DNA from: a bacterium
Lineage (GTDB): Bacteria > Planctomycetota > Planctomycetia > Planctomycetales > Planctomycetaceae
NCBI GenBank assembly: GCA_016124895.1
Contig: WGMU01000033.1
Coordinates: 1 to 64,000, forward strand
DNA: 64,000 bases
Direction of reading: 5' to 3'
The translations under genes were made by a program, and so were the position numbers. This document shows positions 5,260 to 22,102 of the stretch, in pieces (the stretch's first letter is position 1; each line of letters starts with the position of its first letter). The notes below the pieces were generated by a model. It was not told the origin of the DNA, searched no databases, and worked only from the letters and a program-made list of their open reading frames with translations.

Positions 5260-5805
5260 TCACAGCGAACCACGTCGCCCTGGATGCTGCCACGCCGCAG
5301 AATCGTCGGGCAGAACTTCGAGAATCTGCCACGAGGAATCGAAATAAACCGGTTCAAAACCGCGTGGAAGTCCCTGTCGCTGTTCCGCTGGTGTGGCCAC
5401 AGACTTCGTCGATACATCGCTGACTGCGATGGACGGCAGTACTTCGTCTCCAGTCGATTGCTGACGGAGATGATCAGGCAGCATCGCAACCAGGAACGTC
5501 AATGCGGCGACGGAAATCATCCCGATGGTTCGGAAGGCGCCCCCCAGTCGCTTCCCAGTGGAAGAGCCAGCTTCATCCGACTGTGCGATGCGAGCTTCCA
5601 GCTTCGGCCAGACACTGTCGCGTCTCGCCTGCAGCGTTGCCGCATTGAATGAAACAAGCACGTCGGAGCTGCTTAGAAGCGCTTCAACGTGCTGTTGGCA
5701 GTCGGAGCAGTTGTTGACGTGCTCTCTAACTGATTCTGCTTCCGCCTGGCTGAGATCATTGCCGACCCACAGGGCGATCATCTCACGGGCAAATCTGCAG
5801 TTCAT
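5260..5805 (-). CDS. anti-sigma factor with N-terminal zinc finger
   Basis: A 181-residue membrane protein of the zinc anti-sigma type. The N-terminal cytoplasmic domain has the HxxxCxxC motif (HVNNCSDCQQH, residues 28-38) preceded by a cysteine in MNCRF. One hydrophobic segment follows near residues 90-110 (TIGMISVAALTFLVAML). The C-terminal 70 residues would lie outside the membrane and show no known domain. Its start overlaps the stop of the ECF sigma gene by ATGA, the normal arrangement of a sigma factor followed by its anti-sigma. It is inferred to hold that sigma factor at the membrane until an envelope signal releases it. Confidence 0.85.
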   Translation of the reverse strand: MNCRFAREMIALWVGNDLSQAEAESVREHVNNCSDCQQHVEALLSSSDVLVSFNAATLQARRDSVWPKLEARIAQSDEAGSSTGKRLGGAFRTIGMISVAALTFLVAMLPDHLRQQSTGDEVLPSIAVSDVSTKSVATPAEQRQGLPRGFEPVYFDSSWQILEVLPDDSAAWQHPGRRGSL

Positions 5806-6470
5806 TTCTGACAGGCCTCTGATTCGGATACGACGCCTTCGCGGCTCAGCCGCGCTGTCCACAACTTCTGAAACTTAGATCGGGCTTCGGCAAGCCGCCA
5901 CCGAATCGTGGCTTCCTTCCGTTTCAGAATTGCAGCAATCTCCGACGTCGAGAAGTTTTCCAGGTCACGCAGGATTAGAACTGTCCTGTACTTTTCAGGA
6001 ATCTGCTCCAGGACCAGCCGTACTTCCTGGGACAGATCGATCTCATCGCGAGGGTCCGGCGTCCCCGGTTCCAGGCAGCGAGTGTCCTCACGCTGCGTCT
6101 GACTGAACAGCGACCAGCGAATCCGTCGCTGCGTCTTCCGCAGATAATCAAGCGTCATATTGACGCCAATCTGAAACAGCCACGGGCCGAATCTGCGGGA
6201 GGGATCGAAAAGTTCCAGCCGCCGAAACACTCTGAGGAATACGTCCTGAGCGATGTCTTCGATGGTTTCCTGGTCGTTGATAAATCGAGAAATCACGCGC
6301 ATCAGCCGGCCCTCGTACCGCTGCACCAGTTCTCCAAACGCAGAACTATTGCCGTCGCGTGCGAGTTCCACGAGGCATGAATCGCTGAATCCCTCAAATT
6401 CCCGACTGGCCGTATCCAGAATCGGGCCGCTGGAGCGGGATTCGATCTGAGCTGTCAATGTACTGGCCAT
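5802..6470 (-). CDS. RNA polymerase sigma factor, ECF (sigma-70) family
   Basis: A 222-residue extracytoplasmic-function sigma factor. Region 2 spans about residues 40-110 (FGELVQRYEGRLMRVISRFI, then DIAQDVFLRVFR and the promoter-melting segment RRFGPWLFQIGVNMTLDYLR). Region 4 is near residues 150-205 (LEQIPEKYRTVLILRDLENF, then SEIAAILKRKEATIRWRLAEAR). Regions 1.2 and 3 are absent, as expected. The gene is directly followed by, and overlaps, an anti-sigma gene with a zinc finger. Its own promoter must lie in the 530-base upstream gap; I could not assign an autoregulatory ECF-type -35/-10 pair with confidence. Confidence 0.93.
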   Translation of the reverse strand: MASTLTAQIESRSSGPILDTASREFEGFSDSCLVELARDGNSSAFGELVQRYEGRLMRVISRFINDQETIEDIAQDVFLRVFRRLELFDPSRRFGPWLFQIGVNMTLDYLRKTQRRIRWSLFSQTQREDTRCLEPGTPDPRDEIDLSQEVRLVLEQIPEKYRTVLILRDLENFSTSEIAAILKRKEATIRWRLAEARSKFQKLWTARLSREGVVSESEACQK

Positions 6471-6999: not shown

Positions 7000-8016
7000 T
7001 CAGTGAAGCTGCCGATCGAGAGCTGCCGCGACTTTTCGGCATTGCGCCATGGCGTCTGCAAAAGCACCTGGCGTCAGCGATTGCGGACCGTCACTCATTG
7101 CCTTCGACGGATCGGGATGAACCTCAATAATCAGACCGTCGCAACCAGCGGCGACCGCGGCCGTACACATCGGAGCAACCAGTGGGGCGTGCCCCGTCCC
7201 ATGACTCGGATCGATGATCACAGGCAGATGCGTCTTCTGGTGCAGATACGGCACCGACGCCAGCGGCAGGGTGAATCGCGTGTGAGACTCGAACGTCCGG
7301 ACACCACGCTCACAGAGCATCACATTCTGGTTGCCCTGATCGAGGATGTACTCCGCCGCCAGCAGAAACTCATCTATCGTCGCCGCCATGCCGCGTTTGA
7401 GCAGCACGGCTTTGCGGGTTTCCCCGACTGCCTGCAGCAGGTTGTAGTTCTGCATGTTTCGAGCGCCGATCTGCAGCACGTCAGCGTAGGCCGCAACGAG
7501 ATCAACGTCCTGTGGTGACATGACTTCGGTAACGACGATCAATCCCGTTTCCTCGCGAGCCGCGGCGAGGAGTTGCAGTCCGACTTCTTTCAAACCCTGG
7601 AAGGCGTATGGACTGGTGCGTGGCTTGAAGGCTCCGCCCCGGAGTGCCGTCGCTCCGGCCTGTTTGACCAGCCGCGCCGTCTCCATGATCTGCTCTTCAC
7701 TTTCGACCGAGCATGGCCCGGCGATGATGCCAATATTCGGGCCGCCGGCGGCGAACAGGCCCAGTTCGATGATTGTCGGCTCGGGTTTCGTTTCGCGGCT
7801 CGCGACCTTGTAGGGAGCGAGAATCGGCAGGACCTGGTCGACTTCGGCGCAGGCTTCCAGCGTTTCTTTCTCACCGTTCCGTTTATCACCGATGGCAGCA
7901 ATCACGGTTCGTTCGGTGCCGACAATGACGTGCGCTTTCAGGCCAAGTTCTTCGACACGGCGCGCCATGCGCTCAATCATCTCCTGCGTCGCAAGAGGTT
8001 TCAGAACAACAATCAT
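7000..8016 (-). CDS. aroF: 3-deoxy-7-phosphoheptulonate (DAHP) synthase, AroF type
   Basis: First enzyme of the shikimate pathway: phosphoenolpyruvate plus erythrose 4-phosphate gives DAHP. The 338 residues have an N-terminal ACT/ferredoxin-like regulatory domain of about 70 residues ([20 protein letters not shown]), then the TIM barrel. Active-site segments visible are [53 protein letters not shown] and [10 protein letters not shown]. This is the AroAI-beta/KDO8PS-like subclass, in which the extra domain mediates feedback inhibition. The expression signal is striking: a leader peptide with a run of Trp, Phe and Tyr codons and an attenuator lie 77-251 bases upstream (see separate entries), so transcription is probably set by charged aromatic tRNA. 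Confidence 0.95.
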
Positions 8017-8080: not shown

Positions 8081-8120
8081 AAAATGAAAAAAGCCCTGAA
8101 GTCCGGCAGGACTTCAGGGC
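8081..8120 (-). terminator. intrinsic terminator of the aroF attenuator (regions 3 and 4)
   Basis: A perfect 12-bp inverted repeat, GCCCTGAAGTCC at 8093-8104 and its complement at 8109-8120, with a GGCA loop. Reading on the minus strand the hairpin is followed at once by TTTTTTCATTTT (8092-8081), the form of a Rho-independent terminator. It stands 30 bases after the stop of an aromatic leader peptide and about 77 bases before the aroF start, so it should stop transcription into aroF rather than end the ClC gene, whose stop is 264 bases upstream. Its 5' arm (8109-8120) is also complementary to the leader-peptide segment 8164-8175. Confidence 0.85.
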
Positions 8121-8247
8121 TGAGTGTCTGAATCGGTTTTCTGAGCAAAGTCAGACCAGACGCACCCCGAAGTCCCGCATGGGAAAGCCATAAAAATAAA
8201 ACCACCAGCCACCGAAACTCGGCGACTGCTGGCAGGCTTTCAGGGTG
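8093..8247 (-). promoter_or_regulatory. aromatic amino-acid transcription attenuator of aroF (regions 1-4)
   Basis: Four mutually pairing segments can be read on the minus strand. Region 1, 8247-8235 (CACCCUGAAAGCC), pairs with region 2, nine continuous pairs then two more after a 2x2 mismatch. Region 2, 8175-8164 (GGACUUCGGGGU), pairs over all 12 bases with region 3, 8120-8109 (GCCCUGAAGUCC), counting two G-U pairs. Region 3 pairs perfectly with region 4, 8104-8093, forming the terminator. Region 2 lies three to seven codons after the WWFYFYGF run of the leader peptide. A ribosome stalled on those codons would leave region 2 free to form the 2:3 antiterminator. A ribosome reaching the stop codon would cover region 2 and allow the terminator. 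This is classical trp/phe-type logic; the pairings are seen, the mechanism is inferred. Confidence 0.82.
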
Positions 8248-8267
8248 CTGGAGACCAAAGCGGACAT
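8151..8267 (-). CDS. aromatic-rich leader peptide of aroF (38 aa)
   Basis: A 38-codon ORF from ATG at 8265-8267 to TGA at 8151-8153. Residues 18-28 read FGGWWFYFYGF: eight of eleven are aromatic, with two tandem Trp codons, then Phe-Tyr-Phe-Tyr. This is the hallmark of a regulatory leader peptide, and the downstream gene makes the common precursor of exactly these three amino acids. A stop codon lies a few codons upstream in frame with no other ATG between, so the start is well defined. There is no strong Shine-Dalgarno sequence. The peptide itself is probably not functional after synthesis. It lies between the ClC gene and aroF and its 3' codons 31-35 form the antiterminator strand. Confidence 0.85.
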   Translation of the reverse strand: MSALVSSTLKACQQSPSFGGWWFYFYGFPMRDFGVRLV

Positions 8268-8294: not shown

Positions 8295-8333
8295 TGTCAA
8301 AGCGGGACGGAGTGTACGGCTCGACGTCGTATG
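8295..8333 (-). promoter_or_regulatory. possible promoter for the aroF leader
   Basis: On the minus strand TTGCTT (ending near 8334) is followed after 17 bases by TACACT (8316-8311), which would start a transcript about 35-40 bases before the leader ATG. A perfect TTGACA also occurs at 8300-8295, but the hexamer 17 bases on, AACGTT, is a poor -10 and would place the start at the leader ATG itself. Neither is convincing; the placement upstream of the leader is what the attenuator needs. Confidence 0.25.
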
Positions 8334-8383
8334 AAGCAACGTTAAACCTCGCAGCTTATTAAGCAACACGATACTGAAGCTCC

Positions 8384-10276
8384 TCATTCCGCGTCGTTCT
8401 GCATCTGTCTTCGTTCGAGCAGTCGCCGGTTGTAGAAACCGATCGTTTCCTTGTGGCGCAGCATTCCCAGCAGATGTCGCGATTCCGCGTTGTCAAGAAC
8501 CGGCAGTTCGCTGACGTTGAGTTGCGTGAAACGCTCCATCGCCGTATTGAGGTCGTCCTGCGGCGTTACGAACAGGTAGTTATCGATCATCACATCTTCG
8601 GCGTTGACCAGCTTCCAGAGCGACTCGTCGTACAGATACTGGCGTACGTCGTCTGATGAAAAGATGCCGACCATCTGCCCGTCGGAATTCTCCACGGGAT
8701 AGAAGTGCTGATGATTTTCGGCGACGCGATGCACGATCTGCTCCAGCGGCATCCCTTCGCGGATGTGAATTAAGCTGAGGTCCCTGCGATACACCTCGTC
8801 GACTTTGATCCCCTCAAGCAGATCGACAATGAAGTCGCCGCGGTGTGCTGGTGACTCAAGTCGGCTCCGCACCTGTTTCTCATAAAGCTTCCAGCGGCGG
8901 CACAGCATGAAGCAAAGTGTCGAACAGAACGTCGTAGGCAGCAGCAGTGAGTAATCGCCGGTCATCTCAGAAACCATGATGATCGTCGAGATCGGCGCGT
9001 TCGCGGCACCAGCAAAGAAGCCCGCCATTCCAACCAGGGCAAACGGTTCAGGCCGGGTCACGACTTCTGGCCACACCTCATGAAACGCCACGCCGACCGC
9101 CGCGCCCAGGCTTCCTCCAATCACCATTGACGGACCGAACACACCACCTGATCCGCCGGAGCCGATGGTGAAAGATGTCGTCAGGATTTTGACTCCAGCG
9201 ATCGCCAGCGACAGCGGCACACCAATCCTGGACGCATCGAGCAGTGTCGCCTGCAGCGTGCCGTAGCCCGTGGCCAGAACGCCGAGTGCATAAGGGTTTC
9301 GGTTTGACGCCCACCACAGGCCGAGGCCGCACAGTGCCGTGATCAGACCGCCGACTGCCGGGCGAATGTGTGGCGGTCCGGGCAGTTTCCTGAACGTGTC
9401 GCGAATCCCGTAAAATGTGCGCACGTAGATCGCCGCGCCAATCACAAGGACAATCGCCATCGCTCCGTAAGGCACCATTTCCAGTGGCGACGTGAGGGCA
9501 TAGTGCAACTGATTTCCAAACAGCGGTTGAAAGCGGACGTCCGGCGGAAGCGACAGACAGTAGACCAGGTAGGCAACGATCGACGCCATCGTCGCAGGCA
9601 CGATGACGTCTGCTTCAAACTCGGCCTCGCTGTACAGAATTTCGGCCGCGAACAGGGCTCCTGCGAGCGGCGCCCGGAAGATTGCCCCGATCCCCGCGCC
9701 CATCCCGGCGGCGAGCAAAATGCGCCGGTCGCGAGTGCTCATTCTCAGCCGCGTGGCCAGAAACGAGCCAAAGCCAGATCCGATCTGCGCGATCGGCCCT
9801 TCGCGGCCGCCTGATCCGCCAGTGCCAATTGTGATGGCTGACGCGATCGTCTTGACAAACGGAATCCGAGTCCGGACAGCACCACCCTTATTATGAAAAG
9901 CGTCGATGGCGGCGTCGGTTCCGTGTCCTTCGGCTTCCGGAGCGAACGAATACACGATCACACCCGATGCAAGCCCTCCTGCCACGCACACGCCCGTGAG
10001 AATCCACGGCGAGAAAGAAGTCTCGGCATGTTCAAAGAGGGCACGCTCGCCACGCGGTTCCACTGCCTGAAAGCCCGCGAGGTTCGACAACGCAAAATGC
10101 GCGACCAGTTGCGTGAGTAGCTGAAACAGAATCGCACCCAGTCCGGCGACGATCCCGATCACCATCGCCAGAACGAACCACTTGACATGGCTCCTCAGTT
10201 CAAGCTGCTGCATCCAGCGGTCGAGCGTTCGAACGGTCCGCGACTGGTTCCTGTTAATGCCTCGTCGTCCCGCCAT
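8384..10276 (-). CDS. ClC-family chloride channel/transporter with CBS domains
   Basis: A 630-residue integral membrane protein. Residues about 30-460 form the ClC core with the selectivity-filter motifs GTGGSGGREGPIAQIG (the gating glutamate is in GREGP) and GSGGSGGVFGPS, and many hydrophobic helices. Residues about 485-600 form a cytoplasmic CBS-domain pair (IHIREGMPLEQIVHRVAEN; ERFTQLNVSELPVLDN) that usually senses adenine nucleotides or ionic strength. Whether it is a channel or a chloride/proton antiporter cannot be decided here. The gene is on the same strand as aroF, but the aroF leader and attenuator lie between them. An upstream ORF extension is not needed; the ATG at 10276 gives a normal N-terminus. 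Confidence 0.92.
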   Translation of the reverse strand: MAGRRGINRNQSRTVRTLDRWMQQLELRSHVKWFVLAMVIGIVAGLGAILFQLLTQLVAHFALSNLAGFQAVEPRGERALFEHAETSFSPWILTGVCVAGGLASGVIVYSFAPEAEGHGTDAAIDAFHNKGGAVRTRIPFVKTIASAITIGTGGSGGREGPIAQIGSGFGSFLATRLRMSTRDRRILLAAGMGAGIGAIFRAPLAGALFAAEILYSEAEFEADVIVPATMASIVAYLVYCLSLPPDVRFQPLFGNQLHYALTSPLEMVPYGAMAIVLVIGAAIYVRTFYGIRDTFRKLPGPPHIRPAVGGLITALCGLGLWWASNRNPYALGVLATGYGTLQATLLDASRIGVPLSLAIAGVKILTTSFTIGSGGSGGVFGPSMVIGGSLGAAVGVAFHEVWPEVVTRPEPFALVGMAGFFAGAANAPISTIIMVSEMTGDYSLLLPTTFCSTLCFMLCRRWKLYEKQVRSRLESPAHRGDFIVDLLEGIKVDEVYRRDLSLIHIREGMPLEQIVHRVAENHQHFYPVENSDGQMVGIFSSDDVRQYLYDESLWKLVNAEDVMIDNYLFVTPQDDLNTAMERFTQLNVSELPVLDNAESRHLLGMLRHKETIGFYNRRLLERRQMQNDAE

Positions 10277-22025: not shown

Positions 22026-22102
<77 letters not shown>

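Follow-up and report, generated by a model that had tools for sequence, protein, structure and literature searches.

The region upstream of the DAHP synthase gene aroF raises the question of whether a planctomycete controls this gene by classical transcription attenuation, with one leader peptide reporting on tryptophan, phenylalanine and tyrosine at once. In the window, that is, the whole 64,000-nucleotide stretch of DNA that was analysed, the gene upstream of aroF on the same strand encodes a ClC-type chloride channel and ends at 8384, so that the stretch between it and the aroF start codon (8016-8014, minus strand) is intergenic. An earlier sequence-only reading had placed there a short aromatic-rich ORF followed by a terminator and had interpreted the two as such an attenuator. 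The features on which the argument turns are the following.

8311-8339, minus strand: candidate sigma-70-like promoter, TTGCTT-N17-TACACT (score 19; absent from the list given by a stricter scan)
8151-8267, minus strand: putative leader peptide ORF of 38 codons (sequence; aromatic-rich leaders lie at the equivalent place in relatives)
8235-8247, minus strand: segment 1, predicted to pair with segment 2 if the ribosome is absent (free-leader fold)
8184-8207, minus strand: putative control codons TGG TGG TTT TAT TTT TAT GGC TTT, encoding WWFYFYGF (sequence)
8164-8175, minus strand: segment 2, predicted 5' strand of the antiterminator, within the last leader codons (12 pairs with 8120-8109)
8109-8120, minus strand: segment 3, predicted 3' strand of the antiterminator and 5' arm of the terminator (sequence, pairing, covariation)
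8093-8104, minus strand: segment 4, 3' arm of the terminator (sequence, fold, covariation)
8087-8092, minus strand: T6 tract of the terminator (sequence)
7000-8016, minus strand: aroF, the putatively controlled gene, encoding a DAHP synthase of the families NF006421 and TIGR01361 (both above cut-off), which we take to be type I-beta

The ORF at 8267-8151 (minus strand) encodes MSALVSSTLKACQQSPSFGGWWFYFYGFPMRDFGVRLV, with FGGWWFYFYGF at residues 18-28, exactly where it had been read, and WWFYFYGF is the sole site with at least 6 W/F/Y per 8 residues in the six frames of the 64-kb window. The peptide belongs to no NCBIfam family and, used as a query within its own genus, matched only itself. A further hairpin, CAGTCGCCGAG-TTT-CGGTGGCTG (8228-8206, minus strand), overlaps the first Trp codon and is possibly a polymerase pause site.

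The terminator, GCCCTGAAGTCC-TGCC-GGACTTCAGGGC (8120-8093), comprises 12 perfect pairs and one outer A-T pair (13 bp, 8121-8092), and four terminator-like sites occur in a 551-bp stretch compared with 0.8 in shuffled sequences. The perfect hairpin with its T6 tract before aroF is present as originally described, but its distance from the gene, previously given as 77 bases, is 76 bases from the stem and 70 from the last T to the aroF ATG; the leader stop codon lies 134 nt from aroF. Segment 2, GGACTTCGGGGT (8175-8164), pairs over 12 bases with 8120-8109 (p 0.005 versus shuffles), which bears out the claimed complementarity, 10 of the pairs being Watson-Crick and 2 G-U. The upstream segment proposed to sequester segment 2 (8247-8235) does pair with it in the folded free leader; taken per sequence, this 1:2 pairing has p 0.095 in the window and 0.015 in the related locus L009. 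The region shows three hallmarks of an attenuator: a short ORF with clustered end-product codons, an intrinsic terminator between that ORF and the structural gene (from sequence and comparison), and an antiterminator that competes with the terminator and has its 5' strand right after the control codons (from pairing and folds).

The expected operation is as follows. With ample charged tRNA for each of Trp, Phe and Tyr, the ribosome would reach the leader stop codon and cover much of segment 2 (8175-8164), leaving segment 3 free to form the 3:4 terminator, which would halt transcription before aroF. A shortage of any of the three charged tRNAs would stall the ribosome in the run at 8207-8184 and leave segment 2 free to pair with the emerging segment 3, so that the polymerase would read into aroF. 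If the leader is not translated, segment 1 could sequester segment 2, and the terminator would form. We modelled these situations as three RNA stretches: free, with the ribosome stalled at the Trp codons, and with the ribosome at the stop codon. The footprint assumed for the ribosome, about 12 nt in front of the decoding site and 15 nt to its rear, is a background value, so that we infer the three ribosome states. The free leader folds with the 1:2 helix and the terminator (-87.9 kcal/mol, z -6.65). The RNA from 8194 on, corresponding to a ribosome at the first Trp codons, has the 2:3 helix in its minimum-energy structure despite the presence of segment 4 (-44.1 kcal/mol), and the same fold is found when segment 4 is removed (-33.7 kcal/mol). 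In the RNA from 8139 on, corresponding to a ribosome that has reached the stop codon, the terminator forms (-25.5 kcal/mol, z -6.25). In these models, the folds of the three states yield the expected attenuator switch.

For comparison, aroF upstream regions were collected from 80 named contigs, 170 genomes of the family, 294 genomes of the phylum and further stretches, resulting in 229 distinct regions that include a paralogue lineage and roughly 30 regions from other phyla. A leader with at least 5 W/F/Y per 10 residues is found in 119 of the 229, whereas the reverse strand gives 9 and shuffled sequences give about 15, and a hairpin with a T run accompanies 112 of the 119. Keeping those in which a stable terminator closely follows the stop codon, and discarding near-copies, left 79 leaders, 3 of them from outside Planctomycetota. 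In the cultured relative Thalassoglobus neptunius (locus L011), an aromatic leader is present, although the automatic terminator call there was poor. Among these 79, segment 2 starts 1-20 nt past the last aromatic codon, the distance from stop codon to terminator is mostly 20-36 nt, and in 42, where about 4 are expected, the 2:3 pairing is better than that of shuffled sequences at p<0.05; taken over the whole set, pairing with a leader's own terminator arm is also better than pairing with the arms of other loci (KS 8e-16, median rank 0.127). The 1:2 pairing is significant in 4/79, which is the chance level. In an alignment of 16 sequences, 8 of the 12 pairs of the 3:4 helix have changed on both sides (reached in 0/500 shuffles), as have 6 of the 12 pairs of the 2:3 helix (25/500 shuffles; 9/500 for the covariation score). 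These 16 were selected by eye from 32 sequences whose terminators are alike, so the unselected tests on the 79 leaders weigh more. Of the features for which conservation was expected, related planctomycetes retain the aromatic run, the terminator and also the 2:3 helix while the sequence changes, but the 1:2 helix is not generally retained; its retention in L009 with an altered sequence suggests that segment 1 may be restricted to near relatives.

On a tree of AroF, a leader is present in 56 of the 68 Planctomycetota rows, and the leader label requires 19 changes over 154 rows. Locus L006 (on the same contig as L088; G048) encodes an 83%-identical AroF and has no recognisable leader, whereas its near relatives keep theirs. 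A second AroF lineage (L189-L207, about 50% identical) is present in many relatives, has no aromatic leader and is often found behind an ACT-domain reading frame resembling the end of pheA.

A transcription start downstream of 8151, with which the leader would never be transcribed, had been named as an observation that would speak against attenuation; the predictions place promoter-like sequences upstream of the leader ATG. The candidate promoter at 8339-8311 has its predicted start approximately 36 nt before this ATG, with a similar placement in L009, and when the 110 nt upstream of the 79 leader loci were scanned, pairs of TTGAC-like and TAnnnT-like elements reached a score of 20 in 61% of the loci compared with 4% of shuffles. 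In 24 of the 58 leaders scoring at least 18, just 6-10 nt separate the end of the -10 element from the leader ATG, so that the leader message would be nearly leaderless. This placement suggests leaderless leader messages in a cluster of relatives, many of them Phycisphaerae; leaderless leader peptides have been reported in Streptomyces lividans (PMC8079986).

The design had been presented as a planctomycete one. It does recur across Planctomycetota, but similar leaders are also found in the phylum of Geobacter and, less clearly, in Chloroflexota, so that, judged by sequence, it is more widespread than supposed. In the phylum of a Geobacteraceae genome, such leaders occur at 20 of 30 loci, for example, MDRPLITKNFGWWFYFYYCFGGVCPSAKTI. 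The 2:3 pairing is significant in 16 of 30 tested leaders with a terminator from outside Planctomycetota, all 16 on the Geobacter-phylum side, where segment 2 is GTCTGCCC-like and unrelated to the planctomycete GGAYTTCGGGG, whereas the layout is the same. The Chloroflexota leaders, for example, MLKSARWFAYFYFYGFRNSVAVGGA, lie mostly 500-700 nt upstream and have terminators, and among those tested the 2:3 pairing is not significant. One chloroflexotal locus (L276, G433:C34:11360-13398) has two tandem aroF genes downstream of a single aromatic leader, with a tmRNA gene immediately upstream on the other strand.

We think that this region very probably works as a classical transcription attenuator mediated by the ribosome, its leader being rich in each of the three end products of the pathway, because the design recurs before aroF in Planctomycetota, in relatives of Geobacter and, less clearly, in Chloroflexota. 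The attenuation reading proposed at the outset finds support in the conserved run, the terminator and the 2:3 pairing, with which the folds agree. We infer leader translation, termination and read-through in the cell, how much RNA the ribosome covers, and how the switch responds to each of the amino acids. The view that the leader controls the entry enzyme of the shikimate pathway needs one amendment: the gene does encode a DAHP synthase, but because the genome contains a second one, of type I-alpha (aroFGH-type) on another contig, aroF specifies just one of two isozymes. No type II enzyme was found in the genome, the third match being a KDO8P synthase, and no aromatic leader precedes the type I-alpha DAHP synthase, KDO8P synthase, trpE, pabB-like or pheA gene of the same genome. 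No relatives of aroF were found in viral contigs. Elsewhere in the window, downstream of aroF, an ORF at 5802-6470 (minus strand) resembles, by its translation, a sigma-70-family factor and is overlapped by an ORF at 5260-5862 (minus strand) resembling an anti-sigma factor; Rfam detects a tRNA gene at 22026-22100 (plus strand).

A search of the leader region against Rfam gave no match at the gathering score and weak, unrelated sub-gathering matches at E values up to 5, so that no curated covariance model of a T-box, a riboswitch or an Rfam amino-acid leader matched. The trp and pheA attenuators of Escherichia coli (trpL, pheL) share the logic of the 1:2, 2:3 and 3:4 helices and the presence of product codons with the planctomycete leader, but each addresses one amino acid, whereas the latter mixes W, F and Y. 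The control codons of E. coli trp lie within segment 1, whereas segment 1 of the planctomycete leader is upstream of the control codons and lacks general conservation. The ilvGMEDA leader likewise has several end-product amino acids in a single leader, although the pathway differs (branched-chain). This operon is among those controlled by attenuation (PMC1183508). Closest in setting is the aroR leader before aroF of Corynebacterium glutamicum (Neshat et al. 2014, via PMC11802643 and PMC4046766), where a leader with mixed aromatic codons likewise attenuates a DAHP synthase gene through the ribosome; this leader is reported to have Phe-Tyr-Phe, without a Trp run, and it belongs to a different phylum. 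uORFC-13-1, found upstream of aroF in just Acholeplasma and environmental sequences, similarly combines a short ORF containing at least one Phe codon with a terminator, its function having been proposed from sequence, and is described without a mixed W/F/Y run (PMC8632094). In the open-access literature, we found no published W/F/Y leader before a DAHP synthase gene and no such leader in Planctomycetota, which is weak evidence; as far as we have searched, a mixed W/F/Y leader before DAHP synthase is undescribed so far.

Which amino acids the attenuator senses is a separate issue. From the codon content, sensing of all three is probable, but such content is no proof that each is sensed: the AroR-controlled operon of C. 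glutamicum is reported to respond to Phe, and Tyr availability has no effect despite the Tyr codon (PMC11802643). This precedent, together with the 12 of 79 leaders that lack W or Y, speaks for an attenuator that senses just one or two of the three, such as Trp or Phe, with the other aromatic codons as passengers or filler. Against it, W, F and Y occur together in 67 of the 79 leaders compared with 53.5 (sd 3.7) under random allotment of the residues (p 2e-4, somewhat optimistic given the relatedness of the sequences), and we regard such restricted sensing as possible but rather unlikely.

The codons themselves are biased. The leaders have TTT:TTC at 202:61 and TAT:TAC at 104:44, the opposite of the aroF genes (55:221 and 80:223), the preference for TTT and TAT in the leaders corresponding to odds of 13 and 6.6 relative to aroF. 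It may raise the sensitivity of the leader or else keep the region unstructured; in a model of attenuation, the choice of regulatory codon matters (PMC1183508). We deem improbable an arrest like that of TnaC by Trp, in which the nascent peptide, aromatic-rich as it is, would itself stop the ribosome in response to a free aromatic metabolite instead of to tRNA charging. Arrest peptides keep specific residues, whereas here the residue order is not fixed and relatives retain nothing more specific than the aromatic class and its position; the bias toward TTT and TAT also points to decoding, although it could have another reason.

Still less probable is an ORF that acts on aroF through translational coupling or reinitiation, with the hairpin not working as a terminator: leader genes near start codons are common in Planctomycetes (PMC4833913), but here 134 nt and a T6 terminator intervene, and terminators are found with nearly all leaders. 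That an aromatic ORF arose by chance next to a constitutive terminator belonging to the chloride-channel gene, downstream of which the hairpin lies on the same strand, is highly improbable, given that the leader, the spacing and the 2:3 complementarity are conserved, that the aromatic density is unique in the window, and that the statistics on the 229 regions and the 79 leaders already tell against it.

Returning to attenuation by tRNA charging, the broader proposal, which we find plausible while holding it tentatively, is that a pan-aromatic attenuator integrating Trp, Phe and Tyr tRNA charging is the usual way in which several bacterial phyla control type I-beta DAHP synthase, that selection retains all three residues, and that in some of the planctomycetes the message starts at the leader ATG or close to it, making it leaderless. 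These leaders are short and easily overlooked by annotation, so that many more could come to light by simply scanning upstream regions. If the proposal is true, classical attenuation would extend to Planctomycetota, with the supply of three amino acids read by a single leader where a branched pathway begins, and the natural set of leaders, which vary in the order and number of W, F and Y, would allow tests of how several signals are weighed through the order and number of codons.
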